64,000 bases of DNA from Arthrobacter endolithicus (GTDB lineage Bacteria; Actinomycetota; Actinomycetes; Actinomycetales; Micrococcaceae), in NCBI RefSeq assembly GCF_026627425.1, contig NZ_JAPNLH010000001.1:1-64000 (forward strand), written 5' to 3'. The notes under the pieces were generated by a model. It saw nothing but the letters and a program-made list of their open reading frames with translations. It did no database searches and had not been told where the DNA came from. The translations under genes were made by a program, and so were the position numbers. Of the stretch, positions 11,405 to 27,574 are shown one piece after another. The first letter of the stretch is position 1, and each line of letters opens with the position of its first letter.

Positions 11405-11447
11405 TTGACCATCACACGTGAACTCCGTACAGTGTGTACTGTATACA
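11405..11447 (+). promoter_or_regulatory. Promoter with GntR operator, importer 1
   Basis: TTGACC (11405-11410), a 17-base spacer and TACAGT (11428-11433) form a sigma-70-like promoter. Directly after it lies TGTACTGTATACA (11435-11447), sharing the core CTGTATACA with the sites at 16712 and 26826. The same promoter/operator spacing recurs before the P-protein genes, so both should be repressed by the same GntR protein. Confidence 0.6.
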
Positions 11448-11473
11448 AAATAACCACTGAGATGAGGAAGTTC

Positions 11474-12781
11474 ATGCCGAAATCCGTGAAGTTCGCCGCG
11501 CCGCTGCTTGCTCTGGCACTGCTGTCCGGCTGTGCCAGCGGTGGTGTGCCCGCCGCGTCCGGCGTGAAGCTGGAAAGCCAGGCCGCCGTATCCGGTCAAA
11601 TCACCGTTTGGAGCTGGGATGTTGCCGCCACGGCCTTGAAGCGGCTGGCGGATTCCTACACTAAGGAGCATCCGGGAACAACCATCAATGTGGTGGACAT
11701 CGGCTACGACAATGCCTACGACAAGATGTCAGTAGGCCTTCAGGCCAACAGTGGGCTTCCAGACGTAATCACCGTCGAGACGGATCACATGCCCGCCTAC
11801 ATTCACCAGTTCCCCAAGGCCTTTACTGATCTGAGCCCGCTGGTTGGCGCGGACAAGGCGAAATTCGATCCCTCCAAAGTCTCGGCCTCCTCCGATGCCA
11901 GCGGCCAACTACTCTCCCTGCCGTGGGATTCTGGCACCGTAGCACTCTATGCCCGCACTGATTACTTTAAGGCCGCCGGCATCGATCCAGGCACCCTGGG
12001 CACCTGGGACCAGTTTCTGGCCGCGGGGGAAAAGGTTAAGGCAGCTACGGGCCATGCCCTGATATCCACAGACCTCTCCACCGGAGGCCTCTTCCAGATG
12101 CTCCTCCAGCAGCAGGGCCGGGGCGTCTTCACCTCCGGCGGGCAAATCGACCTGACCTCACCGGCTGCGGTCAACGCGCTCACGTTGATCAAGTCGATGA
12201 ACGATAGGGGCCTGCTGGACAACGTCAAGGGCTGGGATGGTCGGGTGACGGCCACCAAGAACGGTAATTCCGCCATCATGCCCGAGGCCGTTTGGTGGAT
12301 CGGCACGCTGACTTCCGAAATGCCGGAGCTTGCCAACAAGTTCACGGTGCTTCCGCTGCCTGCCTTTACCGCCGGAGGAACGCAGACCTCCAACGACGGT
12401 GGCTCAACCCTGGCCGTGCCGGCCCAGTCCAAGAATCCCCAGTTGGCGGGCTCCTTCGTGAAATACATGCTCGCCAGCACCGATAATCAAGTCTCGATGA
12501 TGAAGGAGGAGGGCCTGTTCCCGTCCTACCTGCCGGCCCTGGACGCCCCACTGTTCCATGAGCCGCAAAGTTACTTCGGCGGCGAAAAAGTCTATGAGCT
12601 CTTCGCCGACCAAACCCCTAAAATTCCTTCCATCACCTACACCAGCGACACCGCCAAGGCGGGGGATATCGTAGCCAACGCCGTCGTCGCGTCGGTGCTC
12701 AATCACCAGGATCCGGCCGCGGCGCTGAAGTCTGCGGCTGACCAGATTGCCACCGCCACCGGGCGAAAGCTTGCGCAGTAA
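11474..12781 (+). CDS. Sugar ABC importer, substrate-binding lipoprotein (importer 1)
   Basis: A family-1 extracellular solute-binding protein of about 435 residues. The N-terminus is a lipoprotein signal: FAAPLLALALLSGC, with the LSGC lipobox giving a lipid-anchored Cys. The mature part starts with QITVWSWDVAATALKRLADS and includes TVETDHMPAYI and AVWWIGTLTSE. The ATG at 11474 is preferred because GAGGAAG (11464-11470) precedes it; ATG at 11462 is in frame but has no ribosome binding site. It precedes two permease genes and a GH42 glycosidase, so the cargo is probably an oligosaccharide or glycoside. Confidence 0.88.
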   Translation: MPKSVKFAAPLLALALLSGCASGGVPAASGVKLESQAAVSGQITVWSWDVAATALKRLADSYTKEHPGTTINVVDIGYDNAYDKMSVGLQANSGLPDVITVETDHMPAYIHQFPKAFTDLSPLVGADKAKFDPSKVSASSDASGQLLSLPWDSGTVALYARTDYFKAAGIDPGTLGTWDQFLAAGEKVKAATGHALISTDLSTGGLFQMLLQQQGRGVFTSGGQIDLTSPAAVNALTLIKSMNDRGLLDNVKGWDGRVTATKNGNSAIMPEAVWWIGTLTSEMPELANKFTVLPLPAFTAGGTQTSNDGGSTLAVPAQSKNPQLAGSFVKYMLASTDNQVSMMKEEGLFPSYLPALDAPLFHEPQSYFGGEKVYELFADQTPKIPSITYTSDTAKAGDIVANAVVASVLNHQDPAAALKSAADQIATATGRKLAQ

Positions 12782-12784
12782 CCC

Positions 12785-13702
12785 ATGGTCAGCACACTGT
12801 TGCGCCCTGTCGTGAAGGCGCCCGGGCGGGCCGGGGCTCGGAGCTCAGCCCGCCGTCGTCGCCCGGGCTATTGGTTCGTCCTGCCGGCTGCGGTGCTCTT
12901 CGTCATCTTCTTCCTATATCCGCTGCTGTCCTCGTTGTGGCAGAGTTTTTTCTCCACAGCGGGCGGGGAGTCAAGCTGGGTGGGAGGGGCGCAGTATCTG
13001 CGCCTTTTCCACGACCCGCTGGTGGCCAAGAGCCTGTTCAACGCGTTCCTGATCCTGGTCATTCAGGTCCCGCTGATGGTCTGCGTGGCCCTCGCACTGG
13101 CCTACCTGCTCAACCAGTCCTGGTTACGTTTCCGCACAGGCTTGCGTGCCATCTACTTCCTTCCGGCGGTCACCACGCTGGTAGCTTACTCTCTGGTGTT
13201 CCGGGTCATGCTGGCCACCGACGGCGGCGCCGCCAACCAGATCCTGGGCCTCGTGGGCGTCGCCCCGGTGGACTGGCTGAACAGTGAAGTCTGGTCCCGC
13301 GTAGCCCTGATCGCCTCGATCACCTGGCGCTGGACCGGCTACAACATGGTCATCATTTTGGCCGGTCTGCAGGGGATTCCCACCGAGCTGTATGAGGCCG
13401 CCCGCATTGACGGCGCCGGCCGCTGGGCCATCTTTACCAAGATCGTCATTCCGCAGCTTCGCCCGGTAATCCTGTTCAGCTCCATTACCTCCACCATCGG
13501 TGCCCTGCAGCTCTTCGATGAGAATTTTATCCTCACCGGCGGAGGACCCAACAACGCGACCTTGACGCCCGTGCTGTACCTGTACAAGGTGGGCTTCCAG
13601 CAGTTCGATTTCGGCTACGCATCCGCGATCGCTTGGCTGCTGGTGGCGATTATCGCCGTGATTTCCGTCCTCCAGTTCGTGATCCTGAAGGAGAAAAAAT
13701 GA
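12785..13702 (+). CDS. Sugar ABC permease, MalF type (importer 1)
   Basis: A 305-residue membrane permease with an N-terminal segment (YWFVLPAAVLFVIFFLYPLL) and five more. The cytoplasmic EAA loop reads YEAARIDGAGRWAIFTKIVI. Such proteins pair with a MalG-type partner and a shared ATPase (MsiK-like), which is not encoded here. It starts 3 bases after the binding-protein stop and overlaps the next permease by ATGA. Confidence 0.9.
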   Translation: MVSTLLRPVVKAPGRAGARSSARRRRPGYWFVLPAAVLFVIFFLYPLLSSLWQSFFSTAGGESSWVGGAQYLRLFHDPLVAKSLFNAFLILVIQVPLMVCVALALAYLLNQSWLRFRTGLRAIYFLPAVTTLVAYSLVFRVMLATDGGAANQILGLVGVAPVDWLNSEVWSRVALIASITWRWTGYNMVIILAGLQGIPTELYEAARIDGAGRWAIFTKIVIPQLRPVILFSSITSTIGALQLFDENFILTGGGPNNATLTPVLYLYKVGFQQFDFGYASAIAWLLVAIIAVISVLQFVILKEKK

Positions 13703-14520
13703 CGCAGACGCTCAAGAGGCTGCCGGTCTACCTGGTCCTGTTGGTCGGGGCGGTGCTGAGCATCATTCCCTTTTTGTGGATGGTGATCGCCTCAACGCAT
13801 ACGACCTCTGCACTGTTCGCCACGCCGTTGCCGCTGCTGCCGGGCGGCCAGCTTTGGACTAACCTTGCGCGGCTCCAGCAGGAGACCAACTTCGCCCAGG
13901 TCATGCTGAACTCGGTTGTCGTGGCCATCATCTACACGGCCTTCTCCGCGGTGGTCAGTGCCATGTGCGGCTACGGCCTGGCCAAGTTCCGCTTCCGTGG
14001 CCGCGGTCTGGTGCTCGCCGCCGTGCTGCTGACCATGATGATCCCGATGCAGGTGCTGCTTGTGCCGCTTTTCCAGATGATGGCGAGCCTGGGCTGGGTG
14101 AACACCTACCAGGCGCTGATCCTGCCCTTCCTTGCCAACGCCTTCGGCATCTTCTTGATGCGCCAGGCCTTTTTGGACTTCCCGGACAGCCTGATCGAAG
14201 CGGCCCGTATCGACGGCGCGGGGGAGTTAAAGACGTTCTACCGCATCGTGATGCCCGTGGCACGGCCGCAGCTGGCTGCCCTGCTGATCTACACCTTCAT
14301 CAGTCAGTGGAATTCGTTCATCTGGCCCCTGCTCATGCTCAACACCGAGGACAAGTACACGCTGCCGGTGGCGCTGAACACCATGATCGGGCTGTCGCGG
14401 GTGGATTATTCGGGCCTGATGCTCGGTTCCTTGCTGGCCACGCTGCCACTGCTGCTGGTCTTCATCGTTTTCCAAAAACACTTCGTATCAGGACTTATGG
14501 GAGGGGCGGTCAAGGGATGA
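13699..14520 (+). CDS. Sugar ABC permease, MalG type (importer 1)
   Basis: A 273-residue permease; TTQ-like start MTQTLKRLPVYLVLLVGAVL, EAA loop IEAARIDGAGELKTFYRIVM, and terminal FVSGLMGGAVKG typical of MalG-type proteins. The ATG overlaps the stop of the MalF-type gene (ATGA) and is preceded by GAAGGAG. Its own stop overlaps the ATG of the GH42 gene. No ATPase gene is present in the operon. Confidence 0.9.
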   Translation: MTQTLKRLPVYLVLLVGAVLSIIPFLWMVIASTHTTSALFATPLPLLPGGQLWTNLARLQQETNFAQVMLNSVVVAIIYTAFSAVVSAMCGYGLAKFRFRGRGLVLAAVLLTMMIPMQVLLVPLFQMMASLGWVNTYQALILPFLANAFGIFLMRQAFLDFPDSLIEAARIDGAGELKTFYRIVMPVARPQLAALLIYTFISQWNSFIWPLLMLNTEDKYTLPVALNTMIGLSRVDYSGLMLGSLLATLPLLLVFIVFQKHFVSGLMGGAVKG

Positions 14521-16592
14521 CCCGGACGCTAAAACTCGATGGGATCGCCTTTGGCGGCGACTACAATCCCGAGCAATGGCCGCGGGAGGTATGGGAGGAA
14601 GATGTCCGGTTGATGCGAAAGGCCGGGGTCAATTTCATTACGGTATCCGTCTTTTCCTGGCCGCTGCTGGAACCGGAAGAAGGGCGCTTTGACTTCGGTT
14701 GGCTCGATGACGTCATCGAGCTGCTGCACGGTGCTGGGATTGCCGTTGACCTGGCAACGGCGACCGCAACGCCGCCAGCGTGGCTCATCCGGAAATATCC
14801 GCAGATTCTCCCCGTCACTGCAGACGGCACCCAGCTGGAGTTCGGCTCCCGGCAGGCCTACTGTTTCAGCTCCCCGCTGTTCCGCGAGTACGCGCTGCGG
14901 CTCACCCGTGCCATGGCCGAACGCTACGGCAAGCACCCGGCCGTGCGTCTCTGGCATGTGTCCAACGAATATGGTGACCACGTCTCACGGTGTTGGTGTC
15001 CGGCGTCCGCAATCGCCTTCCGTGCGTGGCTGCGCGCTAAGTACGCCAGCATCCAGACGCTGAACGACTCCTGGGGCACCAGTTGCTGGGGCCAGCACTA
15101 CCTTGACTTCGACGCGATCGAACCGCCCCGCGAATCCACCGGGCCGGTCAATTCCACCCAAAGGCTCGATTTCGAGCGTTTCTCCTCGGACGCGATGCTG
15201 GAACTGTTCCGCTCTGAGGTTGCGGTGCTGCGCGACGTTACCCCGGAACTGCCGGTGACCACCAACTTCATGTCCATACTGCACGATCTGGACTACTTTG
15301 CCTTCGCCGACGCCGAGGACCTCGTCACGGATGACGCCTACCCGGACCCGGCCGACCCGGGTGCGCACGTGGACGCGTCTTTGAACTATGCCCTGATGCG
15401 TGGGGCGAAGGGGGGCGCCCCCTGGCTGCTGTTGGAGCAGTCGGCCAGCGCCGTCAGCTGGCGGGACGTCAATGTCCCCAAGGCGCCCGGGGTGATGCGG
15501 CTGGACAGCTATCAGGCGCTGGCCCACGGCGCCGACGGCGTCATGTACTTCCAGTGGCGCGCCGCCAGGTTTGGACCGGAAAAATTCCATGCCGCCATCC
15601 TGGGGCACCGTGGCGAGGCGAGCAGGACATTCCAGGAATGCAGCCGACTCGGTGCCGAATTGCGGCAGCTGGGCGCGCTGAAAGGCAGCAGGGTGACGGC
15701 GGACGTCGCGATGCTCTGCGACTGGGACTCCAACTGGGCTCTGGCCGCGCCGAACTCGCTGCCGACCAACCGGATCAGCTGGATTGGCCAGGCGCGGGCC
15801 TGGCACCGTGCAGCGTTCAACCTCGGTGTGACGGTGGACCTGGTGCGTGCTGCGGCAGACTGGTCAGCATACAAGGTGCTGCTGGTACCCAATCTGTATC
15901 TGGCCACCGAGGCTTTGGCAGCCCAGCTCGCGGCGTACACCGCAGCAGGGGGGACCGTCGTTATCGGCCCGTTTTCCGGTGTGGTCGACGAAAACGACCA
16001 TGTCCACCCCGGCGGGGCACCGGGTCCGCTGCGCCCGCTGCTGGGCATCGAGGTGGATGAGGTGTGGCCGGTCCCCGACGGCGAGACCGGTGCAGTGCAG
16101 ATGGAGGGCGTGCCATGCGGTATCCACACGGTCAGCGAATGGCTCGACGCGATAGACGCACGCACCGTGGCAACCTACACTAACGGCGAGCTGAACGGCC
16201 GCCCGGCTGTGACCATGAGGCACCACGGCCGCGGGTCTGCGTGGTACCTGAGTGCATGTTTTGAGGATGCCGGACTGCAGGCGTTAGTGCGGCAGATCTT
16301 CGCGCACAGCGGTGTTCTGGTCCGCGTCGGCGCCGGGCCGGATATCGAGATCGTCGTCCGCCGGGGCAGACGGACAGCCTTTACCTTCGTGCTCAACCGC
16401 TCAGCGATGGCGCTGGACGTTTCGGTGCCTGCCGGAGCAGCCGTTCTGGTCGGCGACGGAAGGAGTGCGGCCGGGATAGGCAGCGCTGGGGGCACCTATC
16501 TGCTGCCGGCCCGTGGCGTCCTCGTGATCGAGCATGCGCATGAGGATACCGTGCACCTGCTGGGCGAACCCGCGCAGCTGCAATCCGTGTAG
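14517..16592 (+). CDS. GH42 beta-galactosidase-type glycoside hydrolase
   Basis: A 691-residue cytoplasmic GH42 enzyme. The N-terminus FGGDYNPEQWP is the family start. The acid/base Glu is E151 in WHVSNEYG and the nucleophile is E307 in LLLEQSAS. CRCWC-like cysteines follow the acid/base (SRCWCPAS), as in zinc-containing GH42 members. The trimerisation (flavodoxin-like) domain and a small beta domain follow. The start overlaps the permease stop; the longer open frame upstream is the permease read in another frame. GH42 enzymes cleave beta-galactosides and sometimes alpha-arabinosides or other beta-glycosides; the imported glycoside is the likely substrate. Confidence 0.9.
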   Translation: MTRTLKLDGIAFGGDYNPEQWPREVWEEDVRLMRKAGVNFITVSVFSWPLLEPEEGRFDFGWLDDVIELLHGAGIAVDLATATATPPAWLIRKYPQILPVTADGTQLEFGSRQAYCFSSPLFREYALRLTRAMAERYGKHPAVRLWHVSNEYGDHVSRCWCPASAIAFRAWLRAKYASIQTLNDSWGTSCWGQHYLDFDAIEPPRESTGPVNSTQRLDFERFSSDAMLELFRSEVAVLRDVTPELPVTTNFMSILHDLDYFAFADAEDLVTDDAYPDPADPGAHVDASLNYALMRGAKGGAPWLLLEQSASAVSWRDVNVPKAPGVMRLDSYQALAHGADGVMYFQWRAARFGPEKFHAAILGHRGEASRTFQECSRLGAELRQLGALKGSRVTADVAMLCDWDSNWALAAPNSLPTNRISWIGQARAWHRAAFNLGVTVDLVRAAADWSAYKVLLVPNLYLATEALAAQLAAYTAAGGTVVIGPFSGVVDENDHVHPGGAPGPLRPLLGIEVDEVWPVPDGETGAVQMEGVPCGIHTVSEWLDAIDARTVATYTNGELNGRPAVTMRHHGRGSAWYLSACFEDAGLQALVRQIFAHSGVLVRVGAGPDIEIVVRRGRRTAFTFVLNRSAMALDVSVPAGAAVLVGDGRSAAGIGSAGGTYLLPARGVLVIEHAHEDTVHLLGEPAQLQSV

Positions 16593-16679: not shown

Positions 16680-16724
16680 TTGACCGGAGGCAGCTCAAAG
16701 CATATTGTATTCTGTATACAGAAT
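16680..16724 (+). promoter_or_regulatory. Promoter with GntR operator, P-protein-like operon
   Basis: TTGACC (16680-16685), 17-base spacer and TATTGT (16703-16708) are followed at once by ATTCTGTATACAGAAT (16709-16724), a perfect 16-base palindrome. Its core matches the sites before importer 1 and the regulator gene. A repressor bound here would cover the transcription start. Confidence 0.7.
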
Positions 16725-16784: not shown

Positions 16785-18155
16785 ATGAGCAACCAAGTAA
16801 CCCATCCATACATCCCCAACTCGGTTCCGGCCGTGCGGGAGCAGATGCTGGCCGCCGTGGGAGCTGCCGACATCGAGGAGTTCTACGCTGACATTCCGGC
16901 AAGCCTGCGCGTTCAAGGCAGCCTGAACCTGCCGGCACCCTTCCTCGCTGAGGCCGAGCTGGAGCGGCACGTCAGTTCGCTGCTGAACAAAAACACGAGT
17001 ACCCGCGAAACCCTAAGTTTCCTGGGCGCCGGGACCTATAACCACTACGTGCCTGCTGTCGTGGACGAGGTCATCAGCCGCAGCGAATTTCTTACCGCCT
17101 ACGCGGGGGAGCCGTACGAGGACCACGGCCGCTTCCAGGCGTTGTTTGAATACCAGTCGATGATGGCGGAGCTGCTGAACATGGACGTCGTGAACGTCCC
17201 TACCTACGACGGCATGCAGGCCGCTGCCACGGCCCTGGCCATGGCGGGCCGCATTACCGGCCGCCGCGGCATAGTCCTGGTCAGCGACGCAAACCCGGAC
17301 GCACTGTCCAAGGTTTCCGACTATGTGCGCTCCTTCATGGACCTGAGCATCGTGCCGTCAATCAACGGCACCGCGGACCTGCAGGCCGCGGCCCTGGCCA
17401 TCGGCGCGGACACCGCAGCTCTCTGGATCCAGACGCCCAGCTTCCACGGTGCGTTGGAGGACCAAGGTGAGCAGCTGGCCCGGTTGGCGCACGACGCCGG
17501 TGCACTCGTCGTTGTCGGCACGGACCCGATTGCCTACGGTGCGCTGGCTCCGCCCGCAGACTGGGGGGCGGACATTGTCTGCGGCGACATCCAGTCCCTG
17601 GGGATCCACCAGTGGTTTGGCGGTGGACGGGGCGGCTTCATCGCCGTCCATGACGATCCGACGTTTGTGCTGGAAATGCCTTCCCGTTTGTTCGGCCTTG
17701 AGTCCACCGATGTCGAGGGCGAGTACGGCTTCGGTGACGTGGCCTGGGACCGCACATCGTTCGCGCTGCGCGAAGAAGGGAAGGAATGGGTGGGCACAGC
17801 GGCCGCCCTGTGGGGTATCGCCGCCGGCGTCTACCTTGCCTCAATGGGACCCACCGGCATGGCGGAGCTGGGAGAGACCCTGCTGGCACGCACGGCCTAC
17901 GCCGCGCAGAAGCTGGCCGGCGTTGACGGCGTGCAGCTGTGCGACTCCGCCCTGCACCTGCGCGAGTTCGCCATCGATTTTTCCAATGCCGCCTTGTCCA
18001 GTACTGAGGCTGTCGCGGCCTTGCGGGTCCGGGGGATTGAGCCAGGCGTTGTATTGCCCGGCAACTGTCTGCTCGTATGCGTGACCGAACAGATCACCGC
18101 CGCGGACATCGATACCCTTGCGGCCACCCTCACCGCCGTTTTGAAGGAGAACTAA
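16785..18155 (+). CDS. GcvPA-like subunit of a glycine-decarboxylase-type (P-protein) enzyme, divergent
   Basis: A 456-residue protein of the GcvPA type (usual length about 450): SLLNKNTSTRETLSFLGAGT, NHYVPAVVDEVISRSEF, FEYQSMMAELLNMDVVNVPT, and IVCGDIQSLGIHQWFGGG are recognisable. Classical GcvPA has TAYTPYQPEISQG; here T104-R116 reads TAYAGEPYEDHGR. The usual RREKATSNICTNQ signature is replaced by REEGKEWVGTAA near residue 330. The ATG has AGAGGTGA at 16773-16780. It is followed by the GcvPB-like gene. No gcvT, gcvH or lpd is present. The pair may act on an amino acid other than glycine or without the glycine-cleavage cycle. Confidence 0.82.
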   Translation: MSNQVTHPYIPNSVPAVREQMLAAVGAADIEEFYADIPASLRVQGSLNLPAPFLAEAELERHVSSLLNKNTSTRETLSFLGAGTYNHYVPAVVDEVISRSEFLTAYAGEPYEDHGRFQALFEYQSMMAELLNMDVVNVPTYDGMQAAATALAMAGRITGRRGIVLVSDANPDALSKVSDYVRSFMDLSIVPSINGTADLQAAALAIGADTAALWIQTPSFHGALEDQGEQLARLAHDAGALVVVGTDPIAYGALAPPADWGADIVCGDIQSLGIHQWFGGGRGGFIAVHDDPTFVLEMPSRLFGLESTDVEGEYGFGDVAWDRTSFALREEGKEWVGTAAALWGIAAGVYLASMGPTGMAELGETLLARTAYAAQKLAGVDGVQLCDSALHLREFAIDFSNAALSSTEAVAALRVRGIEPGVVLPGNCLLVCVTEQITAADIDTLAATLTAVLKEN

Positions 18156-18156: not shown

Positions 18157-19719
18157 ATGGCACTTCCTGTTGCCCCGAAGCCCGTCCTGCGCCGCTTTCA
18201 TCAGGCACGCTGGGATGAAAAGATCATTTTCGAACTGAGCACGCCCGGCGAACGGGGCATCCTGGTCCAGCAGAGCGAGCCGGCTGCCACCGAGGCACTG
18301 GCCTTGCGCGAGGACCGCTTGGCCCCGCTGCGCCGGACCGCCGCCCCCGTGCTGCCGGAACTGGCCCAGATGCGGGTGGTGCGGCACTACCTGCGTCTGA
18401 GCCAGGAAAACCTGGGTGCGGACTTCAACATTGACATCGGCCAGGGCACCTGCACCATGAAGTACAGTCCCAAAATTAATGAGACCCTCATCGGCACGCC
18501 GAAGCTGATGGACCTGCACCCGCTGCAGGACGAGGCCAGCATCCAGGGCGTGTTGGAGATCTTCTGGCGGATGGAACAGCTGTTGGCGGAGATCTCGGGG
18601 ATGGCACGCGTCAGCCTGCAGACCCAGGGCGGCTCGGCCGCCATCTGGGCCAACATTGCCATGATCCGCGCGTACCACGAGTCCAACGGGGACGGACAGG
18701 TCAGGGATGAGGTCATCACGACCATTTTCTCGCATCCCTCCAACGCCGCCTGCGCCAAGGCGGCCGGTTACAAGGTCATCACGCTGATGCCGGACGCTGA
18801 CGGCTACCCGGACATCGACGCCCTTCGGGCAGCGGTCTCCCCCCGCACGGCGGCCCTGATGATCACCAACCCCGAGGACACCGGCATCTACAACGCCAAG
18901 ATCCGTGAGTTCGTGGACATTGTCCACGAGGCCGGTGGCCTGGCGGCGTATGACCAAGCTAATGCCAATGGCATTCTTGGCATCACCCGGGCCTCCGACG
19001 CCGGCTTTGACCTGTGCCACTTCAACCTGCACAAAACGTTCAGCACCCCGCACGCCAGCGGCGGCCCCGGCGCCGGCGCCAGCTGCGTCTCGGAGAAGCT
19101 CGTGCCGTTCCTGCCCGGCCCCACCATTGACAAGGTGGCGGAGAAGTTCGTCATCAACCGCGACCACCCGCAGTCGGTGGGCGTTGTGGCCCCGTTTTAC
19201 GGGGTGGCCCCAAACGTGGTCCGTGCCTACGCCTGGATCATGGCGCTCGGTGCAGACGGCCTGCGCCAGGCCGCCGAGACTGCCGTACTGAACAACAATT
19301 ATCTGCTGGCCAAGGTCCTGGAAATTCCCGGTGCCTCCGCTCCGTATGCGGAGGGCAAGCGGCGCATCGAGCAGGTCCGCTACTCCTGGCAGGAGCTCTT
19401 TGAGGACACCGGCGTTTCCTCGGAGGAGATCGGCATTCGGATGTCCGACTTCGGCATGCATTATTGGACCAGCCACCACCCGTACCTTGTCCCGCAGCCG
19501 TTCACGCTCGAACCCACCGAGTCCTACTCGAAGGCGGAGATTGACGAGTACGTGGCCGTGCTGGCCCATGTCGCCGGCGAGGCGCGCAGCAACCCGGAGA
19601 TCGTCCGCACCGCCCCGCACAACCAGACGGTGCACCACATCCACCATGATGATCTGGACGATCCGGCGCGCTGGGCCATTAGCTGGCGCGCCTATCAGAG
19701 GAAATATCCGAGCAACTGA
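18157..19719 (+). CDS. GcvPB-like, PLP-binding subunit of a P-protein-type enzyme, divergent
   Basis: A 520-residue protein like GcvPB (usual about 490). The PLP lysine is K293 in HFNLHKTFSTPHASGGPGAG; classical P-proteins have [20 protein letters not shown], so the Gly-rich loop is altered. LVPFLPGPTI replaces the usual LAPFLPGH. ADFNIDIGQGTCTMKYSPK matches the family's LGSCTMKYNPK region. AAGGAGA (18144-18150) sets the start, one base after the upstream stop. A strong hairpin follows at 19730. Family reaction: PLP-dependent decarboxylation of glycine with transfer of aminomethyl to lipoyl-GcvH; without H-protein nearby the true reaction is open. Confidence 0.83.
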   Translation: MALPVAPKPVLRRFHQARWDEKIIFELSTPGERGILVQQSEPAATEALALREDRLAPLRRTAAPVLPELAQMRVVRHYLRLSQENLGADFNIDIGQGTCTMKYSPKINETLIGTPKLMDLHPLQDEASIQGVLEIFWRMEQLLAEISGMARVSLQTQGGSAAIWANIAMIRAYHESNGDGQVRDEVITTIFSHPSNAACAKAAGYKVITLMPDADGYPDIDALRAAVSPRTAALMITNPEDTGIYNAKIREFVDIVHEAGGLAAYDQANANGILGITRASDAGFDLCHFNLHKTFSTPHASGGPGAGASCVSEKLVPFLPGPTIDKVAEKFVINRDHPQSVGVVAPFYGVAPNVVRAYAWIMALGADGLRQAAETAVLNNNYLLAKVLEIPGASAPYAEGKRRIEQVRYSWQELFEDTGVSSEEIGIRMSDFGMHYWTSHHPYLVPQPFTLEPTESYSKAEIDEYVAVLAHVAGEARSNPEIVRTAPHNQTVHHIHHDDLDDPARWAISWRAYQRKYPSN

Positions 19720-19729
19720 CACAGGAAAA

Positions 19730-19797
19730 GGGCGACGGCGGCACGCACCAAGGCGTTCATACCGCCGGCCGTAAAGCCGGCCGTGCCGCCGTCGCCC
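19730..19797 (+). terminator. Hairpin after the P-protein-like pair
   Basis: A perfect 16-base stem (GGGCGACGGCGGCACG at 19730-19745 with its complement at 19782-19797) encloses a second GC-rich hairpin around CCGGCCGTAAAGCCGG. There is no U-tract. It can stop or reduce readthrough into importer 2, which starts 64 bases downstream. Confidence 0.6.
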
Positions 19798-19860
19798 TGA
19801 GGCTCCGCCCGTGTCAATCGTTCCATCCCACCCCCAGTACCAATCACCCAGGAGTATCCC

Positions 19861-21153
19861 GTGAACAGCATCACCTTCAGCCGTAGGAATTTCGTGGCGG
19901 GCGCTCTCGGCGTCGGCGCACTGCTGGCCACATCGGCCTGCGGCGGATCGGCCGGCGGCAACAGCGCATCCCAGATCACCTGGTCCACCTGGGGGACCCC
20001 AGAGGAGGGGCAGCGCTTCAAAACGTTCAACACCGCATTCAAGGCCGACAACCCCAGCATCAACGCCACCTTGCAGATGGTGCCGTCTTACTCGGACTAC
20101 CACTCCAAGCTCCTGACCCAACTGACGTCCGGCACTGCACCGGACGTTTTCTATGTCGGTGATGACTACCTCGGGAAATTCGTCTCCGCCGGCGTGCTCA
20201 TGGACCTGACCCCGGTGGTCAGCGGACCGGACGCCAAGGTCACGCTGGCGGACTTCAACGAGGCCCTGTTTGGCGCCGGCAAGACGGACAAGGGCATCTT
20301 CGCCCTGCCCAACGACTGTAACCCGGACGTTTTCTGGTTCGATAAGAAGGCTTTGGCTGCTGCCGGCATCACCGAAAATCCGGCCGAGCTCGCCGCAGCC
20401 GGCAACTGGACCATCGAGACCTTTTTGGCCATGTGCGCCAAGCTGGCCGCCAACGGCATGACCGGTGCCATCTTCTGGAACTACTGGTCCACCCACTGGA
20501 GCTGGGTGACGGCCAACGGCGGCGAGGTCTTCGATTCGGCCGGTAAGTTCGTACTCCCGCAGGACCCGAAGAGCGTCGCCGCCATCGCATCTCTGGCCGA
20601 TGCCTTCGCCAACAAGTCCTTCACCGTGGCCGACACCCTGCCGGATGGATCCGGCGCGGACAGCCTGTTCGTCTCCCACAAGGCGGGCTTCTACGTTCAG
20701 GGCCGCTACGGCATAGCCACGGCCGAACAGTCAGGCAACAAAGACGATTACGACATCGCTCCGTGGCCTACAGTTTCGGGCAAGCCCGGCAGCAGCGGCG
20801 TTGCCGCATCCTATCTGGTGATCAATGCCAAGACCAAGGCGCCCAAGACAGCATCGACCTTCGTGGGCGAGTTCCTCAGCTCCAAGGGCCAGACCCTACG
20901 CCTGGCCGACGGCGGCAATGCCGTCCCATCGGTCAAGGGCGCCGACTCCGTGGTCCTGGGCGGGAACTACCCCGCGCATGCGAAGTCCTTCCTCGACATG
21001 ACCCACACCGGCTTCGAGGACTTTTCCAAAGAGGCAAGTGTTCCAGGCCTGTCCTCCGACGTCAGCAAGGCCATGCTCTCCATGTACCAGGGCAAAGCCA
21101 GCGCGGGGGACACCATCGCGGCCGTGTCAACGCTGATCGAAAAGGCGGTCTGA
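19861..21153 (+). CDS. Sugar ABC importer, substrate-binding lipoprotein (importer 2)
   Basis: A 430-residue solute-binding protein. The N-terminus FSRRNFVAGALGVGALLATSAC combines a twin-arginine motif (SRRNF) with a lipobox (TSAC), indicating Tat export and lipid anchoring. The mature part starts QITWSTWGTPEEGQRFKTFN. GTG start at 19861 with GGAG eight bases upstream. No GntR-type site is seen directly upstream; expression may come from readthrough past the 19730 hairpin or from its own promoter. Belongs with the two permeases and GH63-like hydrolase that follow. Confidence 0.87.
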   Translation: MNSITFSRRNFVAGALGVGALLATSACGGSAGGNSASQITWSTWGTPEEGQRFKTFNTAFKADNPSINATLQMVPSYSDYHSKLLTQLTSGTAPDVFYVGDDYLGKFVSAGVLMDLTPVVSGPDAKVTLADFNEALFGAGKTDKGIFALPNDCNPDVFWFDKKALAAAGITENPAELAAAGNWTIETFLAMCAKLAANGMTGAIFWNYWSTHWSWVTANGGEVFDSAGKFVLPQDPKSVAAIASLADAFANKSFTVADTLPDGSGADSLFVSHKAGFYVQGRYGIATAEQSGNKDDYDIAPWPTVSGKPGSSGVAASYLVINAKTKAPKTASTFVGEFLSSKGQTLRLADGGNAVPSVKGADSVVLGGNYPAHAKSFLDMTHTGFEDFSKEASVPGLSSDVSKAMLSMYQGKASAGDTIAAVSTLIEKAV

Positions 21154-21157: not shown

Positions 21158-22096
21158 GTGACGGCTGTCCTGGCCAAGGCTGGCACCCCCGGGGCCGGCC
21201 TGGAAGAGCGGAAGGAGGCGGGATGGCGCAAACGTGACCGCTGGTCCGGGCTCGTCTTCGTCAGTCCGCAGCTGATCGGCATGAGCGTTTTCGTGCTGCT
21301 GCCCTTCGCCGTCGGATTGGTCCTGGCCTTCGCCCAATGGGACGGGCTGACCGAGCTGAGCTGGGTGGGGCTGGCAAACTTCCAGGCCCAACTGGCCGAC
21401 CCCGTGTTTTTGCGCTCCATCCTGAACACCCTGGGCCTGGCCATGATCACCGTGCCCGTGGGCCTGGCCTTGTCGCTGCTGATTGCCGTCGCCTTGGACC
21501 GGCTGCGCGGACGCACCGGCTATCTGCTGCTCTACTTCGCCCCGGTGATGACCAGCTCCATCGCTGTGTCCCTGGTATGGCAGCAGATCCTCCGGGCCGA
21601 CGGGCCTCTGAATGAGGCGTTTTCCACAGTCTTCGGCATCCCCGGCCCGGGCTGGCTCAGTGATCCCCGCTTTGTGCTGCTGGCCGTGAGCATCGTGACC
21701 ATCTGGTCCTCCCTGGGTCTGAACGTCATCATCTTCCTGGCGGGCCTGCAGGGCATCAACCCGACGATTCTGGAAGCCGCGCGGGTGGATGGCGCGGGGC
21801 CGCTGCGGACCATGCTGGCGATCCGCTTGCCGCTGCTGTCCCCGGTGGTGTTCTTTTCCACGGTAGTGGCCGTCATCAGCTCCTTCCAGACCTTTGACGT
21901 GGTCTTCATCCTGACCAAAGACGGCGGGCCGGAGAACTCGGCCCGGACTATCGTCTACCAGATCTATGACGAAGGCTTCAAGCATTTCCAATTCGGGATG
22001 GCCAGTGCGGCATCCATCATCTTGCTCATCCTGACCCTCGTCGTCACCGCCGTGCAGCTCGGACTGCAACGCCGGTTCGTGCACTACGAAAGCTGA
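21158..22096 (+). CDS. Sugar ABC permease, MalF type (importer 2)
   Basis: A 312-residue permease with six membrane segments and EAA loop LEAARVDGAGPLRTMLAIRL. GTG start 4 bases after the binding-protein stop. It resembles the first importer's MalF-type permease only at family level, so the two importers are probably not recent duplicates and may carry different cargo. ATPase absent. Confidence 0.88.
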   Translation: MTAVLAKAGTPGAGLEERKEAGWRKRDRWSGLVFVSPQLIGMSVFVLLPFAVGLVLAFAQWDGLTELSWVGLANFQAQLADPVFLRSILNTLGLAMITVPVGLALSLLIAVALDRLRGRTGYLLLYFAPVMTSSIAVSLVWQQILRADGPLNEAFSTVFGIPGPGWLSDPRFVLLAVSIVTIWSSLGLNVIIFLAGLQGINPTILEAARVDGAGPLRTMLAIRLPLLSPVVFFSTVVAVISSFQTFDVVFILTKDGGPENSARTIVYQIYDEGFKHFQFGMASAASIILLILTLVVTAVQLGLQRRFVHYES

Positions 22097-22100
22097 GACC

Positions 22101-23000
22101 GTGACAACCACACTGCAGAAGGCACCGGTCCGCAAAGTCCCGGCCCCGATCGGCCGCCGGAGACGGACACACAGCGCCAAGGGGTCCAGGGTCACTCTGC
22201 ACGTGCTGTTGGCCGTGGGCGGCTTCCTGATGGTGGCCCCGTTCCTGTGGATGCTGCTGACCTCCTTCAAGACCCTGCCGCAGATCCTGGCGAACCCACT
22301 GGGCCTTTTTCCCTCACCCTGGAACTTCAATAATTATGCCGACGCCTGGCAGGCCGCCCCCTTCGGGCTCGCCTACTGGAACAGCATCTACATCTGTATC
22401 CTGACCGTCGCCGGAACCATCCTGACCGCCTCGATGGCCGCGTACGCATTCGCCCGGATCGAGTTCAGGGGAAGCAAATTCCTCTTCATCTTGTTCCTGG
22501 CCACCCAAATGGTCCCGCAGCAGGTCACCATTGTGCCGCTGTACATGATCTTCTCGAAGCTGGGTTGGGTGGACACGCACCTGGCGCTGATCATCCCGGC
22601 CGTGCTGTGCAACCCGTTCGCGGTGTTCCTGGTACGCCAGTTTATTCGCTCGCTTCCCGTGGAACTTGAGGAGGCGGCCCGGCTGGATGGGGCCGGCCGC
22701 TGGCGGATCCTGTTCAGCATCGTGATGCCGAACATCAAGCCGGGCCTGGCCGCCCTATCCATCGTCGTGGCGCTGGGGGCCTGGAACAACTTTTTCCTGC
22801 CCTTGATTGTGCTCAACAGCGAGAACCAGTTCACGGTGCCGCTGCTGCTCTCGCAATTCACCGGACAGTACGGCGGTGTCAATTACTCCCTGGTCATGGC
22901 AGCATCGGCCATTTCCATCGTGCCGATGCTTATCGCGTTCCTCATCGGCAACCGCAAAATCCTCAATTCCATGGCCATGTCCGGCATGGGCGGCTCCTGA
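22101..23000 (+). CDS. Sugar ABC permease, MalG type (importer 2)
   Basis: A 299-residue permease: a 30-residue basic N-terminal extension, then GGFLMVAPFLWMLLTSFKTL and an EAA loop LEEAARLDGAGRWRILFSIV. GTG start 4 bases after the upstream stop; its stop shares a base with the ATG of the next gene, giving tight coupling to the GH63-like hydrolase. Confidence 0.88.
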   Translation: MTTTLQKAPVRKVPAPIGRRRRTHSAKGSRVTLHVLLAVGGFLMVAPFLWMLLTSFKTLPQILANPLGLFPSPWNFNNYADAWQAAPFGLAYWNSIYICILTVAGTILTASMAAYAFARIEFRGSKFLFILFLATQMVPQQVTIVPLYMIFSKLGWVDTHLALIIPAVLCNPFAVFLVRQFIRSLPVELEEAARLDGAGRWRILFSIVMPNIKPGLAALSIVVALGAWNNFFLPLIVLNSENQFTVPLLLSQFTGQYGGVNYSLVMAASAISIVPMLIAFLIGNRKILNSMAMSGMGGS

Positions 23001-24745
23001 TGGGTCCGTGGCCCGGCGCCGGCGCCTTCATCGATCTGGACGCGGTGCCGCTGACGGACCGGGGCTCGCGCCTGCTCGTCTTTGTCCGGCCCGACGGCGA
23101 CCTCCGGGTGGCGGGAGCGGTCTACGAACGCAGCGCGGAGCGGTGCACGCATTTGCGCCGGCTCGCGGTGACGGACGCCGCAGGCCGGCGCCTGCCGGTC
23201 ACGGCCGTGGGCCCGGAGGGAATCAGCTTTGCCGGTGGGGCGGCGTCGCTGACGTTTGTCGACGCGGAAACCCTCAGTGTCGGGGTTGCCGAGGACGGCG
23301 GCCCGGTCACCGTCGAAATGGAGGCATTCGGTGTCGACAGTCTCGGCCAGCCCGTCTCCGAAGTTGACGGCGCGCCGATCCGCTGGTGCAGCACCGAAGG
23401 CCCCGGCACGTTGGGCGCCGCCGGCACTGTGCTGCCGGCGGGGGGCAGCGTAAGCGTGCGGATGGGCGGCCCCGTCCGCACCACACCGCAGTCCGGCAGC
23501 CACCGGCAGTACCTGTCCGCGGCGTGCGCCCGCTGGCAAGACTGGTTCGACAAGCTGCCGGCTGTCCGGGACCAGGACGTCGAAATGGTCCGCTATGCGT
23601 GGTGGATCCTAGCCAGCAACATTGTCCGGCTGGCCACGCACCCCGAAATCGAGGCCGTGGTGCCGTCCAAGCAGGGCTATGTTGCCGCCTGGCAATGGGA
23701 CTCGTATTTCATCAGTTTCGGGCTGCGCCACGGCGATCCGGAGCTGGCCGCCGACCAGCTCCGGCTGTTTTTTTCCGAGCAGGCGTCCGACGGCGGCCTA
23801 CCGGATGTGGTGCACGACGGCGGCACGCTGGCCTGCGTGGCGGACGTGCCGCCGGGGGACCTGGCCACGCTGGCGCGGTTACATGGGGCCGACTCGCCGA
23901 TGGTCAGCCAGGCGGACATGCCCATTACCAAACCGCCGCTGGCCGCGTGGGCGGCCCGTGCAGTGGACCAGGCGGCCGGAAACGCAATGCCGATGTCGCT
24001 GCAGAGCGAGCTAAAGGAGGGCCTGGACCGGCTGCATCGGTGGTGGTTCCAGCGGCCCTCACCGGACGGGCTGCCGGGATACGAACACGTCTATTCCTCC
24101 GGGCTGGACGATTCGCCGCTGTTCGACGACGGCGGTCCGGTGTTCGCGCCCGATCTGCCCAGCTACCTGGTGCTGGCCCTGGATGCCATGTCCGGGCTGG
24201 CGGATGACATCGGCGACGCCGCCGAAGCGTCGGCCCAGCGTTCCTTGGCGGACTCGACCGCGGAACGGCTGATCTCCGAGCGCTTTGATCCGAAGCTGGG
24301 CCGGTTTGTGGCGCTGACTCCGGCCGGGCGCCGCGAAACCCTGACTCCGTTCGCCCTGATGCCGCTGCTGACCGGCAGGCTCCCTTACCGGGTGCTGGAA
24401 GGGCTCCGGAAATCGCTCAGTGGGCCTGGTGCCTTGGGAGCGGCCTATCCGCTGCCTACCGTCGCGCTGAACGAACCCGAATTCAACGCCGACCGGATGT
24501 GGCGCGGCCCCGTCTGGCTGAACGTGAATTGGCTGATCGTTCAAGGTCTGCTGCGCAGTGGCCTGGACACCGAGGCCGCAGAGCTGGCCGAGCGGACAGT
24601 CCAGATGGTGCGCAAGAGCGGCGGTCTGCACGAGTACTGGAATCCGCTGACCGGGACCAGGGCAGCCGGTGCCACCACCGGCTTCGGCTGGTCGGCGGCG
24701 CTGTTTCTGGATCTGGCCGTGTGGCTGGAGGCCAGGGACAACTGA
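23000..24745 (+). CDS. GH63-like (alpha/alpha)6 glycoside hydrolase
   Basis: A 581-residue cytoplasmic protein. An N-terminal beta domain (about 1-170) is followed by an (alpha/alpha)6 barrel with WQWDSYF, YEHVYSSGLDDSP (candidate acid D370), RMWRGPVWLNVNWLI and HEYWNPLTGTRAAGATTGF (candidate base E545). This layout fits the GH63 branch that includes mannosylglycerate and glucosylglycerate hydrolases, and more distantly GH37 trehalase. By context it may hydrolyse an alpha-glycosidic compatible solute or oligosaccharide brought in by importer 2. Substrate is inference. Confidence 0.78.
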   Translation: MGPWPGAGAFIDLDAVPLTDRGSRLLVFVRPDGDLRVAGAVYERSAERCTHLRRLAVTDAAGRRLPVTAVGPEGISFAGGAASLTFVDAETLSVGVAEDGGPVTVEMEAFGVDSLGQPVSEVDGAPIRWCSTEGPGTLGAAGTVLPAGGSVSVRMGGPVRTTPQSGSHRQYLSAACARWQDWFDKLPAVRDQDVEMVRYAWWILASNIVRLATHPEIEAVVPSKQGYVAAWQWDSYFISFGLRHGDPELAADQLRLFFSEQASDGGLPDVVHDGGTLACVADVPPGDLATLARLHGADSPMVSQADMPITKPPLAAWAARAVDQAAGNAMPMSLQSELKEGLDRLHRWWFQRPSPDGLPGYEHVYSSGLDDSPLFDDGGPVFAPDLPSYLVLALDAMSGLADDIGDAAEASAQRSLADSTAERLISERFDPKLGRFVALTPAGRRETLTPFALMPLLTGRLPYRVLEGLRKSLSGPGALGAAYPLPTVALNEPEFNADRMWRGPVWLNVNWLIVQGLLRSGLDTEAAELAERTVQMVRKSGGLHEYWNPLTGTRAAGATTGFGWSAALFLDLAVWLEARDN

Positions 24746-24831: not shown

Positions 24832-24839
24832 TGGGCAGC

Positions 24840-25598
24840 TTAAGCGATGCCGCCGCCGTCGACCACCAGTGCCGAACCGGTGACATAGGAGCTGGCGTCG
24901 CTGGCGAGCCACACCACTGCCTCGGCGATTTCCTCCGGGGTGCCCATGCGCTTGAGCGGGCGGTCGTTGGACTCGGCCAGGAAGCTCTGCTCCTCCTGGG
25001 AAAGTTGGCGGGCCTCCTCACGGAGCATGGGGGTATTCGTGTCGCCGGGGTTTACCGAGTTGACCCGGATGTTGTCCGGTCCATGGTCGATGGCCAGTGC
25101 GCGGGTCATATTCACCACTGCCGCCTTGGACGTGCAGTAGGAGATCGCGTCGCCGCCGCCCTTCAACCCCCAGCCGGAACCGGTGTTGACGATCGAGCCG
25201 CCACCGGCGGCCTGCATCAGCGGCACCACGTGCTTGCACAGCAGGAACGGTCCGCGGACGTTGACGGCCATGACCTGGTCCCAGTCCTCAATGGACGTTT
25301 CCAGCACGTTGGCCCGGCGGATGATGCCTGCATTGTTGAACAGCACATTGACACTGCCGAACGCCTCCACCACCTGCGCCACGCCGGACTGAACCTGCTC
25401 GTCGTCGGCCACGTTGACCGCAATGCCGACCGCCTTCACACCCAGCGCACTGGCCTCGTCGGCCACAGCTTTGGCGGCTGCCTCATTGATGTCGAAGATG
25501 GCCACGTTGGCGCCCTCGGCTGCCATGGCCAGGGCCGTGGCACGGCCGATGCCGGAACCGCCGCCGGTGATAATGGCATTTTTGTCCTGCAAACGCAT
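24840..25598 (-). CDS. SDR-family dehydrogenase in the GntR block
   Basis: A 252-residue classical SDR: TGGGSGIG, NNAG (LFNNAGIIRRANV), active-site Ser in VNTGSGWG, and YCTSK. GAAGGAG sits just upstream of the ATG. Typical reaction: NAD(P)-dependent oxidation of a secondary alcohol. It is downstream of the ATP-NAD-kinase-like gene with no gap (stop of one at 25599, start of the other at 25598), so the two are coupled and probably driven from the GntR-bound intergenic region at 26821. Confidence 0.87.
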   Translation of the reverse strand: MRLQDKNAIITGGGSGIGRATALAMAAEGANVAIFDINEAAAKAVADEASALGVKAVGIAVNVADDEQVQSGVAQVVEAFGSVNVLFNNAGIIRRANVLETSIEDWDQVMAVNVRGPFLLCKHVVPLMQAAGGGSIVNTGSGWGLKGGGDAISYCTSKAAVVNMTRALAIDHGPDNIRVNSVNPGDTNTPMLREEARQLSQEEQSFLAESNDRPLKRMGTPEEIAEAVVWLASDASSYVTGSALVVDGGGIA

Positions 25599-26807
25599 TC
25601 AGTACTCCTTCGTTGTGGTGGTGCCTTGACTTTCTTCCGACACCCGGCTGACCGGGTAGACCGTGTGGGTACTAGCACCCGTGAAAACTTTCGCGTAACC
25701 GCTCAGCCGGGCATCTACGTCGTCGTCGCCGGAATCCACCCACAGCGGCCGCCCGGCCAGGGCGGCGAGCTTGGCGTCGGTGGCGACAATCTGCAGCGGG
25801 AGGCTGGAGAGCAACCGTGGGGTGATCTGTTGGTTACCCCGCCCGACGACGAAGCCCTGGCCACCCAGCGGTGTCAGCACTATCGTCGCCTTGAGTCGAT
25901 CCAACAATCCCTCCGGGCCGCCCCGGAGCGCGGCTTCCAAGGCGTGGGCATCAACGTCGGAGGAGAGCAGGGTACCGTCGCGGACAACATCCACGCCAAG
26001 ACGGGTGGTCGCCAGACCGAGCTCGCGGCCGATCGCGGCGGTGGTTCCGCCAGGGCCCAGGACGTATGCGTGATCTGGCTCCATACCGCGAACGAAGGCG
26101 CGGGCCAGGGAGGCTACGGCGTTAGCGTCCGATGCCGGGGTGGGCGCCTTTCGAGCCTGCAGCCGGCTCGGGTCCACGGGGACATTCAACGCACCGTAGA
26201 GGGCGGGCGAGGCGAGCCCGGCGCGCAGCAGGACCTCGTCCATGTCCACTACCTCGCGTTCCGCAACCATTCTTTCGGCGCCTTTGTCGCTGCGGCCCAG
26301 CAGCCAATTGGCAGCCAACGTTCCGGCGGCCGTGGGGGTCAATGCGAAAACCGCCGAATAGATCTTCACGCCGGTCGGGATGCCCAGTACCGGAATGCTG
26401 CCGCCCACGGTGTCCAGCACATCCCGGGCCGTTCCGTCGCCGCCGGCAAACAGAATCAGGTCCACGCGTTCGGTTTTTAACAGCATGGCCAGCCGGCGGG
26501 TGTCCGCCGCGCTTGTTTCGTCAGTGCCTGCGGTGCGGGGCCACAGCAGCGTGGTGGGGCACAGTCCCTTGCCGATGTCCCCGCCCAAGGTGCCCGGACC
26601 GGTATAGAGGCGCAGTTCCCGTCCGGCCTGCCCCAGCAGGGAAACCAGCTGCTGGATCGTGCGCTTGGCCCGAACAGGCGACGTCATAGCGTAGCCCGCC
26701 GTCCGTGCAGTCACCCGAATATCCGCGGCGTCGCTGCCTTTCTGGCCGGCCGGGCCGCCGAGTCCCGCGACAGGGTTGACTATCAGCCCTACTCTGAGAA
26801 CGTCCAT
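25599..26807 (-). CDS. ATP-NAD kinase-like protein (AcoX-like)
   Basis: A 402-residue protein with VNPVAGLGGPAGQKGSD at the N-terminus and the kinase motif AGGDGTARDVLD (residues 121-132), as in NAD/diacylglycerol-kinase superfamily members of the AcoX-like group. GIPTGVKIYSAVFA follows. The start is set by GGAGGTG upstream of ATG 26807; the open frame further upstream runs across the GntR operator. AcoX-like proteins sit in several catabolic operons without a proven activity. Here the link to the P-protein pair and SDR suggests phosphorylation of a pathway intermediate or cofactor. Confidence 0.78.
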   Translation of the reverse strand: MDVLRVGLIVNPVAGLGGPAGQKGSDAADIRVTARTAGYAMTSPVRAKRTIQQLVSLLGQAGRELRLYTGPGTLGGDIGKGLCPTTLLWPRTAGTDETSAADTRRLAMLLKTERVDLILFAGGDGTARDVLDTVGGSIPVLGIPTGVKIYSAVFALTPTAAGTLAANWLLGRSDKGAERMVAEREVVDMDEVLLRAGLASPALYGALNVPVDPSRLQARKAPTPASDANAVASLARAFVRGMEPDHAYVLGPGGTTAAIGRELGLATTRLGVDVVRDGTLLSSDVDAHALEAALRGGPEGLLDRLKATIVLTPLGGQGFVVGRGNQQITPRLLSSLPLQIVATDAKLAALAGRPLWVDSGDDDVDARLSGYAKVFTGASTHTVYPVSRVSEESQGTTTTKEY

Positions 26808-26820
26808 ATGTTTACACCTC

Positions 26821-26847
26821 CAATTCTGTATACAGTATACTGAATTG
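26821..26847. promoter_or_regulatory. GntR operator, kinase-gntR divergent region
   Basis: A 27-base hyphenated palindrome centred on A26834: CAATTC, one base, GTATAC, centre, GTATAC, one base, GAATTG. It contains CTGTATACAG and is related to the sites at 11439 and 16709. It lies 14 bases from the kinase start codon and 68 bases before the regulator, so it can control both directions, including autoregulation. Confidence 0.7.
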
Positions 26848-26914
26848 TGAAGCGAGTGGTAGGTCTGCCGCCTTATCGCTCGATGTCCGATATAGCGGCG
26901 CAAGGGGGAACGGG

Positions 26915-27574
26915 ATGTCCATACAGCGCCAGACTCTGCGCGAGCAGATTGAAGCGGAAATCATGAATCGTGTTTCTGCCGGGGATTTTGGCATGGGCGA
27001 CAGTATTAATGAGGTGGCCCTTTCCGTTGAGCTGGGAGTGAGCCGCACGCCGCTGCGGGAGGCGCTGATCTCCCTCTCGCAGCAGGGCGTCATCAGCCGG
27101 GTGTCCGGCAAGGGGTTTCGCTGGGCGCCGATCGGCGCCCAGGATTTTCAGGAAGCCGTGCAGATTATCGCAGCCCTGGAATCTCTGGCGTTGACCCTGA
27201 CCCCGGCGGAGTACCTTGCTAAAATCGCGCCACAATTGGTGGAGCAGGCAAGGGAGTTCACAGCTTCCGTCAGCTCCGCCCAGGAAATCCATGACCACGA
27301 CGATGCATTCCATTCGCTGCTGACCTCCGGAAGCCCGAACAAGCGTCTGGCCGAGGGCATTGCCTCCTACAAGCTCGCACTTCGCCGATACGAACGTCTC
27401 TACGTGGGCAATACGGATCTGATGGAACGCGCGGCAGCCGAACATGAAACCATTTCAGAGGCCCTGCAGGCAGGGGACGTGCCGGCCGCGATCGAAGCGC
27501 TGAAAGATAACTGGAACAACAGCGTTCCCCGAATCATCAGTGCTCTGCGGGGCAGCGTGCCGGTGCGCGGCTGA
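26915..27574 (+). CDS. GntR/FadR-type (FCD domain) transcriptional regulator
   Basis: A 219-residue regulator. The winged helix spans residues 1-70 (MNRVSAGDFGMGDSINEVAL, SRTPLREAL, ISRVSGKGFRWAP) and the C-terminal FCD ligand domain carries HDHDDAFHSLL and later AAEHETISEAL, with Asp/His residues that bind metal in this family. FCD members usually sense carboxylic acids or small metabolites. Palindromes upstream of this gene, of importer 1 and of the P-protein-like pair share a core, so it probably represses the whole block until a pathway intermediate binds. Confidence 0.88.
   Translation: MSIQRQTLREQIEAEIMNRVSAGDFGMGDSINEVALSVELGVSRTPLREALISLSQQGVISRVSGKGFRWAPIGAQDFQEAVQIIAALESLALTLTPAEYLAKIAPQLVEQAREFTASVSSAQEIHDHDDAFHSLLTSGSPNKRLAEGIASYKLALRRYERLYVGNTDLMERAAAEHETISEALQAGDVPAAIEALKDNWNNSVPRIISALRGSVPVRG

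Follow-up and report, generated by a model that had tools for sequence, protein, structure and literature searches.

The nearest described counterparts of the system reported here are of four kinds. The split P-protein GcvPA/GcvPB of glycine cleavage (PDB 1WYT) is a two-subunit pyridoxal phosphate (PLP) enzyme; AcoX of the acetoin operons is predicted, according to PMC10943186, to be a small-molecule kinase of ATP-NAD kinase type, encoded together with a dehydrogenase and a cleavage/decarboxylation enzyme; the others are the GH63 proteins YgjK and glucosylglycerate hydrolase, and the GH42 beta-galactosidases. Relatives of all of them lie side by side in a 64-kb stretch of Arthrobacter endolithicus (positions 1 to 64,000 of contig NZ_JAPNLH010000001.1, in an assembly of 3.96 Mb and 72 contigs), hereafter the window. 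Between 11440 and 27574 it encodes importer 1, a GH42 glycosidase, the two subunits of a P-protein-like (P-like) enzyme, a hairpin, importer 2, a GH63-type glycosidase, then on the opposite strand a short-chain dehydrogenase/reductase (SDR) and an AcoX-like kinase, and finally a GntR regulator. On balance, these genes probably form one GntR-FCD-controlled catabolic block for the glycoside of a hydroxylated amino compound, in which the kinase, the SDR and the P-like PLP enzyme would act together. The identity of every gene is backed by profile matches to the window proteins, in agreement with the identities and positions of a preliminary description of this DNA, with two corrected starts: SBP1 probably begins at 11474 and the kinase at 26807. 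The features are as follows.

11440 to 11447, no strand: operator 1, TGTATACA, 5' of importer 1 (pattern search)
11474 to 12781, plus: importer 1 solute-binding protein, SBP1 (PF01547, 6.8e-37)
12785 to 13702, plus: importer 1 permease A (PF00528)
13699 to 14520, plus: importer 1 permease B (PF00528)
14517 to 16592, plus: GH42 beta-galactosidase family protein (PF02449, E 1.4e-147; trimerisation domain PF08532)
16713 to 16720, no strand: operator 2, TGTATACA, 5' of P-like A (pattern search)
16785 to 18155, plus: P-protein-like subunit A, PA (NCBIfam GcvPA 450.5 bits, cut-off 364)
18157 to 19719, plus: P-protein-like subunit B, PB, with PLP lysine K293 (NCBIfam GcvPB 572 bits, cut-off 441)
19729 to 19798, plus: strong hairpin in the gap between P-like B and importer 2 (minimum free energy -54.4 kcal/mol)
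19861 to 21153, plus: importer 2 solute-binding protein, SBP2 (PF01547, 6.3e-30)
21158 to 22096, plus: importer 2 permease A (PF00528)
22101 to 23000, plus: importer 2 permease B (PF00528)
23000 to 24745, plus: GH63-type alpha-glycosidase, MGH1-like (PF22422, E 2.9e-58)
24840 to 25598, minus: SDR oxidoreductase (PF13561, 5.6e-70)
25599 to 26807, minus: AcoX-like / ATP-NAD kinase family protein, start inferred (PF01513, 1.8e-16; PF20143, 2.8e-12)
26827 to 26840, no strand: operator 3, two GTATAC cores, in the gap between kinase and regulator (pattern search)
26915 to 27574, plus: GntR-FCD regulator (PF00392, 2.8e-15; PF07729, 1.3e-13)

The set is conserved, and it appears to be jointly regulated, in some soil actinobacteria and Chloroflexota. 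Among 389 relatives of P-like B, the best 80 were retained (PB identity 66-93%) and joined by 12 loci from genomes of the window's family, giving 92 scored loci. Ninety of these are distinct, L048 being a duplicate of L036 and L049 of L040; the duplicates were counted twice in the residue comparisons and once in the GTATAC and final linkage counts. A locus was taken to have full flanks when at least 7.8 kb lay on each side of the P-like B match, genes beyond the fetched span being missed. In the 68 distinct full-flank loci, P-like A was found 68 times, the AcoX-like kinase 67, the SDR 62, GntR 60, GH42 57, the GH63-like protein 51, at least one of the two importers 56 and both glycosidases together 51. 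Co-occurrence of these genes elsewhere, a test set beforehand, was thus observed. Either importer may be absent and the gene order varies by lineage, which suggests selection for the set itself. The Chloroflexota locus L106 has a GH2 gene after the SDR, and its P-like pair is preceded by a GH63-like gene and an importer; no GH42 was seen in it, the contig being cut. Few genomes have P-like genes. At E <1e-200, 13 of the 295 in the window's family match; at E <1e-120, matches occur in 3 of 396 Actinomycetota and in 8 of 301 Chloroflexota genomes, where each figure includes one centre genome whose P-like genes were known in advance.

The same linkage bears on the alternative that one regulator serves two unrelated modules, one for galactosides/glucosides and one for amino compounds, only because both substrates come from the same environment. 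In loci L040-L046 the fetched span around the P-like/kinase core gave no match to GH42 or GH63, and the plasmid cores other than that of Natronosalvus have no annotated glycosidases alongside, both of which speak for two modules. However, the 51 of 68 loci with both glycosidase types keep them with the core while gene orders vary, and we give this alternative a slim chance.

Joint regulation is indicated by the operators. The preliminary description had proposed related operators at three promoters and a single block with common operators. Both proposals hold, the second by operator sites together with linkage in related loci: TGTATACA occurs exactly three times in the 64 kb, at 11440, 16713 and 26827, that is in the three promoter regions named beforehand. 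Importer 2 lacks a separate copy in the window and is parted from P-like B by the strong hairpin, whose outer stem is 16 bp long (z -5.0; 0 of 200 shuffles equally low) and which is a possible terminator or attenuator. The hexamer GTATAC is non-random in placement and not in number. Its count in the window is not raised (5 seen, 7.3 expected from base shuffles), and the related loci confirm the placement: in the 90 non-duplicate loci, totalling 1.72 Mb, 88 of 116 GTATAC sites precede a scored cluster gene by at most 150 bp, and these well-placed sites come from 55 of the 90 loci. The conserved palindromic operator at operon heads looked for in a GntR-FCD regulon was found. Twelve control hexamers, picked by the analyst and given the same placement score, reached 0-14% (0/28 up to 18/131). 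A longer operator pattern matched 29 times in 7 whole genomes, and 25 of these matches fell in or beside the cluster; its reversed version, used as a control, matched 4 times. Two of the 25, in genome G283, lie about 2 kb from a degraded second P-like B copy. The GntR protein presumably binds these operators.

The four off-cluster matches of the longer pattern added no further regulon members. The one in the window's own genome sits within a listed open reading frame (ORF), two overlapping ones in G140 lie just 5' of the likely start of another GntR-type gene, and the fourth is in G283.

To judge from sequence comparison, the P-like pair is probably something other than the P-protein of glycine cleavage. 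As in split GcvPA/GcvPB, it is a two-subunit PLP enzyme and the PLP residues are retained in P-like B: K293 in 101/101 sequences, D266 in 101/101 and H193 in 100/101, plus one X. In PLP enzymes of this kind, the residue at H193 stacks on the ring and that at D266 contacts the ring nitrogen. Unlike GcvPA/GcvPB, the P-like proteins stand across a fully supported branch. The tree comprises 54 proteins, and a single branch of length 1.89 (support 100/100) parts the 36 P-like rows from 18 comparison rows (6 split, 12 fused), so that the P-like rows fall outside the comparison P-proteins, with a midpoint root only. Among the six split comparison pairs, L138, L142, L143 and L144 have gcvT and gcvH annotated alongside, L140 has a GcvT fragment only and L141 neither; on the fused side, 6 of 18 gcvP loci had been dropped, their longest ORF lacking the PLP motif. 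The residues shared by split and fused P-proteins are not kept either: 33 PA and 32 PB positions (65 in all) have one residue in 90% or more of the 18 comparison sequences but in less than 10% of the P-like sequences, which often carry another nearly fixed residue there. Plasmid-derived rows contribute 7 PA and 8 PB sequences, with partly different residues.

Two of the replaced positions may touch on the H-protein. A docking model in PMC7259800 predicts that human GLDC R373 and K376 form salt bridges with the H-protein, and in our reading of the alignment these residues correspond to PA 328 and 331. At position 328, all 18 comparison sequences have R, against L, H or V in the majority of the main P-like group; at position 331, 17/18 comparison sequences have K and 84/86 of the main P-like group have E or D. 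This change is suggestive at most, because it rests on a docking model.

The genomic setting points the same way. In contrast to the split gcvP loci with gcvH and gcvT alongside, the block's proteins gave no profile match to GcvH, GcvT or the L-protein, as the preliminary description had stated, and the P-like pair is additional to an ordinary gcvP. In the window's genome one strong fused gcvP is present, together with two GcvH genes on another contig; against the GDC-P profile, the fused gcvP scores 557.5 bits vs 215.5 for P-like A. In 50 of 51 cluster genomes, a strong P-protein (at least 383 bits) exists besides the weaker P-like match (at most 229 bits). The exception, the metagenome-assembled genome (MAG) G333, has besides the P-like pair only a contig-edge fragment (116 bits) and no GcvH match.

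That the pair serves glycine cleavage as a second P-protein of the ordinary kind, which passing the GcvPA/GcvPB cut-offs and the presence of GcvH in 50/51 genomes would favour, is opposed by the tree split, the replaced residues and the separate strong gcvP; in addition, in other genomes no strong GcvH sharing a contig with the pair lies closer to it than 153 kb (G181), many assemblies being drafts. We regard this explanation as very improbable, and the earlier claim that the pair differs from the ordinary enzyme stands as probable. Absence of GcvH was also considered as a proof of independence from the H-protein and was rejected, GcvH being found in 50/51 cluster genomes. Of the two GcvH genes in the window's genome, the second (G000 contig C44, L130, about 7349-8396) precedes ORFs that by eye look FHA-domain-like and MerR-like, with no P-protein gene beside it.

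The AcoX-like kinase is a steady partner of the P-like genes. The AcoX family domains PF01513/PF20143 were found, with a GGDGT motif invariant in 30 aligned sequences; in the profile, PDB and alignment searches the kinase query carried 1-2 codons upstream of its likely start. In 20 further loci, the kinase adjoins the P-like genes 17 times: in 4/4 of L043-L046, 7/8 plasmid loci and 6/8 others; L157, scored in this search, is a 9.1-kb contig ending soon after P-like B. The kinases of L131 and L159 served as queries in this partner search, and both also match the window's kinase. No such kinase was found in the loci of other split gcvPA/gcvPB genes (0/7, with flanks of 5-8 kb vs 8-12 kb for the P-like plasmid loci, and one, L139, without annotation). 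The exception among the plasmids is Natronosalvus halobius (L136, L194), in which the P-like pair and a kinase of the same family are about 54 kb apart on one plasmid, the kinase clustering with SDR, aminotransferase and DHDPS-family genes. In Peptoclostridium acidaminophilum (L193, 10031-12107), an ATP-NAD-kinase-family gene lies directly 5' of a PLP enzyme for which the HisC and CobD models are nearest, with scores below their cut-offs. It is possible that the kinase step precedes that of the PLP enzyme.

A scheme like that of acetoin breakdown can be drawn from these partners. The SDR would turn a vicinal amino alcohol into an amino ketone, and the P-like enzyme would cut the C-C bond next to the amine by the aminomethyl-PLP carbanion chemistry of glycine decarboxylase, with AcoX in the same kind of helper role as in operons for acetoin dehydrogenase. 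No other genes accompany the pair as steadily as the kinase (67/68) and the SDR (62/68), and PMC10943186 places acoX with a butanediol dehydrogenase and acoABC and reports that acetoin dehydrogenase activity depends critically on it. Against the meso-2,3-butanediol dehydrogenase model, the SDR reaches 223 bits, under the cut-off of 270; other models give it higher scores, and it clears the threshold of a subfamily named glucose 1-dehydrogenase (251.5 vs 215 bits). Furthermore, the block's proteins gave no AcoABC match, the kinase is likened to AcoX by family domains and not to a proven acetoin AcoX sequence, and four loci that have the kinase (L159-L162) yielded no SDR resembling that of the window. 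This scheme appears quite unlikely.

The two glycosidases belong to known families. The GH42 protein has the catalytic domain PF02449 and the trimerisation domain PF08532, as in GH42 beta-galactosidases, and its best PDB matches are named beta-galactosidases; it differs from them in being encoded among enzymes for amino compounds. The GH63-type protein has PF22422, and W231, W233, D234 and E545 are invariant in 24 aligned sequences; by analogy with YgjK, D234 and E545 are taken to be the catalytic Asp and Glu. YgjK and glucosylglycerate hydrolase are among its best PDB matches, but it falls far under both NCBIfam cut-offs (78 of 625 and 99 of 550 bits).

These glycosidases lend themselves to a specific aglycone, 5-hydroxylysine, from the collagen-type unit Glc-alpha1,2-Gal-beta-O-hydroxylysine. 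GH63 would release glucose and GH42 galactose, the kinase would phosphorylate the hydroxyl and the P-like enzyme would remove phosphate and ammonia. The mammalian hydroxylysine route consists of a kinase and a phospho-lyase, which this scheme mirrors. To our knowledge, no P-protein homologue is a phospho-lyase, which counts against it. The natural substrate of YgjK, one of the best PDB matches, presumably is Glc-alpha1,2-Gal. The joint presence of both glycosidases in 51/68 loci, the AcoX-like gene 5' of a PLP enzyme in Peptoclostridium and the importer of amino-acid type adjoining the block in L040 agree with the scheme, and Glc-alpha1,2-Gal-hydroxylysine suits two glycosidases and a kinase. 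The Glc-alpha1,2-Gal-hydroxylysine unit is described in PMC8626586 and PMC11012932, and PMC9061262 states that YgjK had been assumed to act naturally on another alpha-glucoside. On the other side, glucosylglycerate hydrolase is also among the nearest models of the GH63-type protein, and the scheme leaves the SDR without a role. Co-occurrence with collagenase, tried as a support, was not supportive: M9 collagenase matches were found in 15/52 cluster genomes and in 0/13 of the window's family, its own genome included. We consider hydroxylysine processed in this way rather unlikely.

Neighbouring genes suggest an amino compound that arrives glycosylated, amidated or perhaps methylated. In L040 (15912-19901), from a relative of the window's family, an amidohydrolase-like protein and an ABC importer, of amino-acid type by similarities below curated cut-offs, are encoded directly 3' of GntR. 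The distant loci L043-L046, which belong to the window's family, have window-type residues at most listed positions and an Amidohydro_3-type protein alongside (by profile in L043, by clustering in L044-L046), and MHS-type transporters occur in L043 and, by clustering, in L044 and L045; annotated TTT transporters lie near some related loci. In an Anaerolineales MAG (L127, 1-1513 and 8361-10355), pairs of an MttB-type methyltransferase and a corrinoid protein flank the P-like core. The annotated neighbours of the plasmid P-like loci include APC permeases, acyl-CoA synthetases, a primary-amine oxidase and DHDPS-family genes; these plasmid-type members have a different residue signature and therefore probably act on another substrate. 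The preliminary proposal of an amino acid or related carboxylate as aglycone is plausible in view of the amino-acid-type importer, the MHS/TTT transporters and the amidohydrolases near some related loci.

Taken together, the evidence is consistent with the following sequence of events, under the control of the GntR-FCD regulator over the whole block. The importers would take up a glycoside, and the GH63-type alpha-glycosidase and the GH42 beta-galactosidase, presumably acting on one molecule, would strip its sugars. The freed hydroxy-amino aglycone would pass to the AcoX-like kinase, the SDR and the P-like enzyme, which may decarboxylate it, possibly after phosphorylation by the kinase, and which would work without a lipoyl H-protein. 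By ancestry we favour decarboxylation over phospho-elimination or C-C cleavage. As substrate we favour an alpha-glycosyl/beta-galactosyl hydroxy-amino compound, glucosyl-galactosyl-hydroxylysine being the boldest candidate. In its widest and, as it stands, unlikely form, the proposal is that a whole family called glycine dehydrogenase consists of H-protein-independent PLP enzymes which, with an AcoX-type kinase, degrade hydroxylated amino compounds, here glucosyl-galactosyl-hydroxylysine, sugars first and amino acid last.

Several observations weigh against the main proposal of a glycoside block with a P-like enzyme acting on the aglycone. No GTATAC lies within 150 bp upstream of any scored gene in 35 of the 90 loci. 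GH42 is missing in 11/68 and GH63 in 17/68 full-flank loci within the fetched span, so the sugars are not obligatory, and all such counts hold for close relatives because the loci are the best 80 of 389. The pair passes both NCBIfam cut-offs (450.5 vs 364 and 572 vs 441). All 12 fused sequences used for comparison belong to a single family, and long branches among the comparison rows drew a warning from the tree program. K331 is kept in 3/6 plasmid-borne PA proteins (5 from Alphaproteobacteria, 1 from Rhodococcus). Finally, GcvH is present in 50/51 cluster genomes (the genome of L120 not included), so that the P-like enzyme may yet use an H-protein.

NCBIfam would name the window pair glycine dehydrogenase, yet its function is probably another one; likewise, genes so annotated on plasmids of Rhodococcus, Alphaproteobacteria and a haloarchaeon probably do something else. 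AcoX-type kinases, whose role is unexplained, gain a candidate biochemical partner. The block also offers a genetic handle on a glycoside catabolism that we did not find described in the open-licence literature searched; for the gene set as well, no description was found by titles and abstract beginnings among the matches listed, which does not show its absence from print.

Two loci deserve separate mention. After GntR in the window (27734-29433), genes of the FmdA/AmdA and Asp/Glu-racemase families follow; these formamidase-like and racemase-like genes were considered as members of the system and rejected, having no match in the 90 distinct loci. In the G283 locus, kinase, SDR and GntR were not found in the fetched span. 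Its second P-like B copy (C1:153796-155052, at the start of L038) contains in-frame stops, and behind the intact P-like B the SBP2 gene matches in pieces only.

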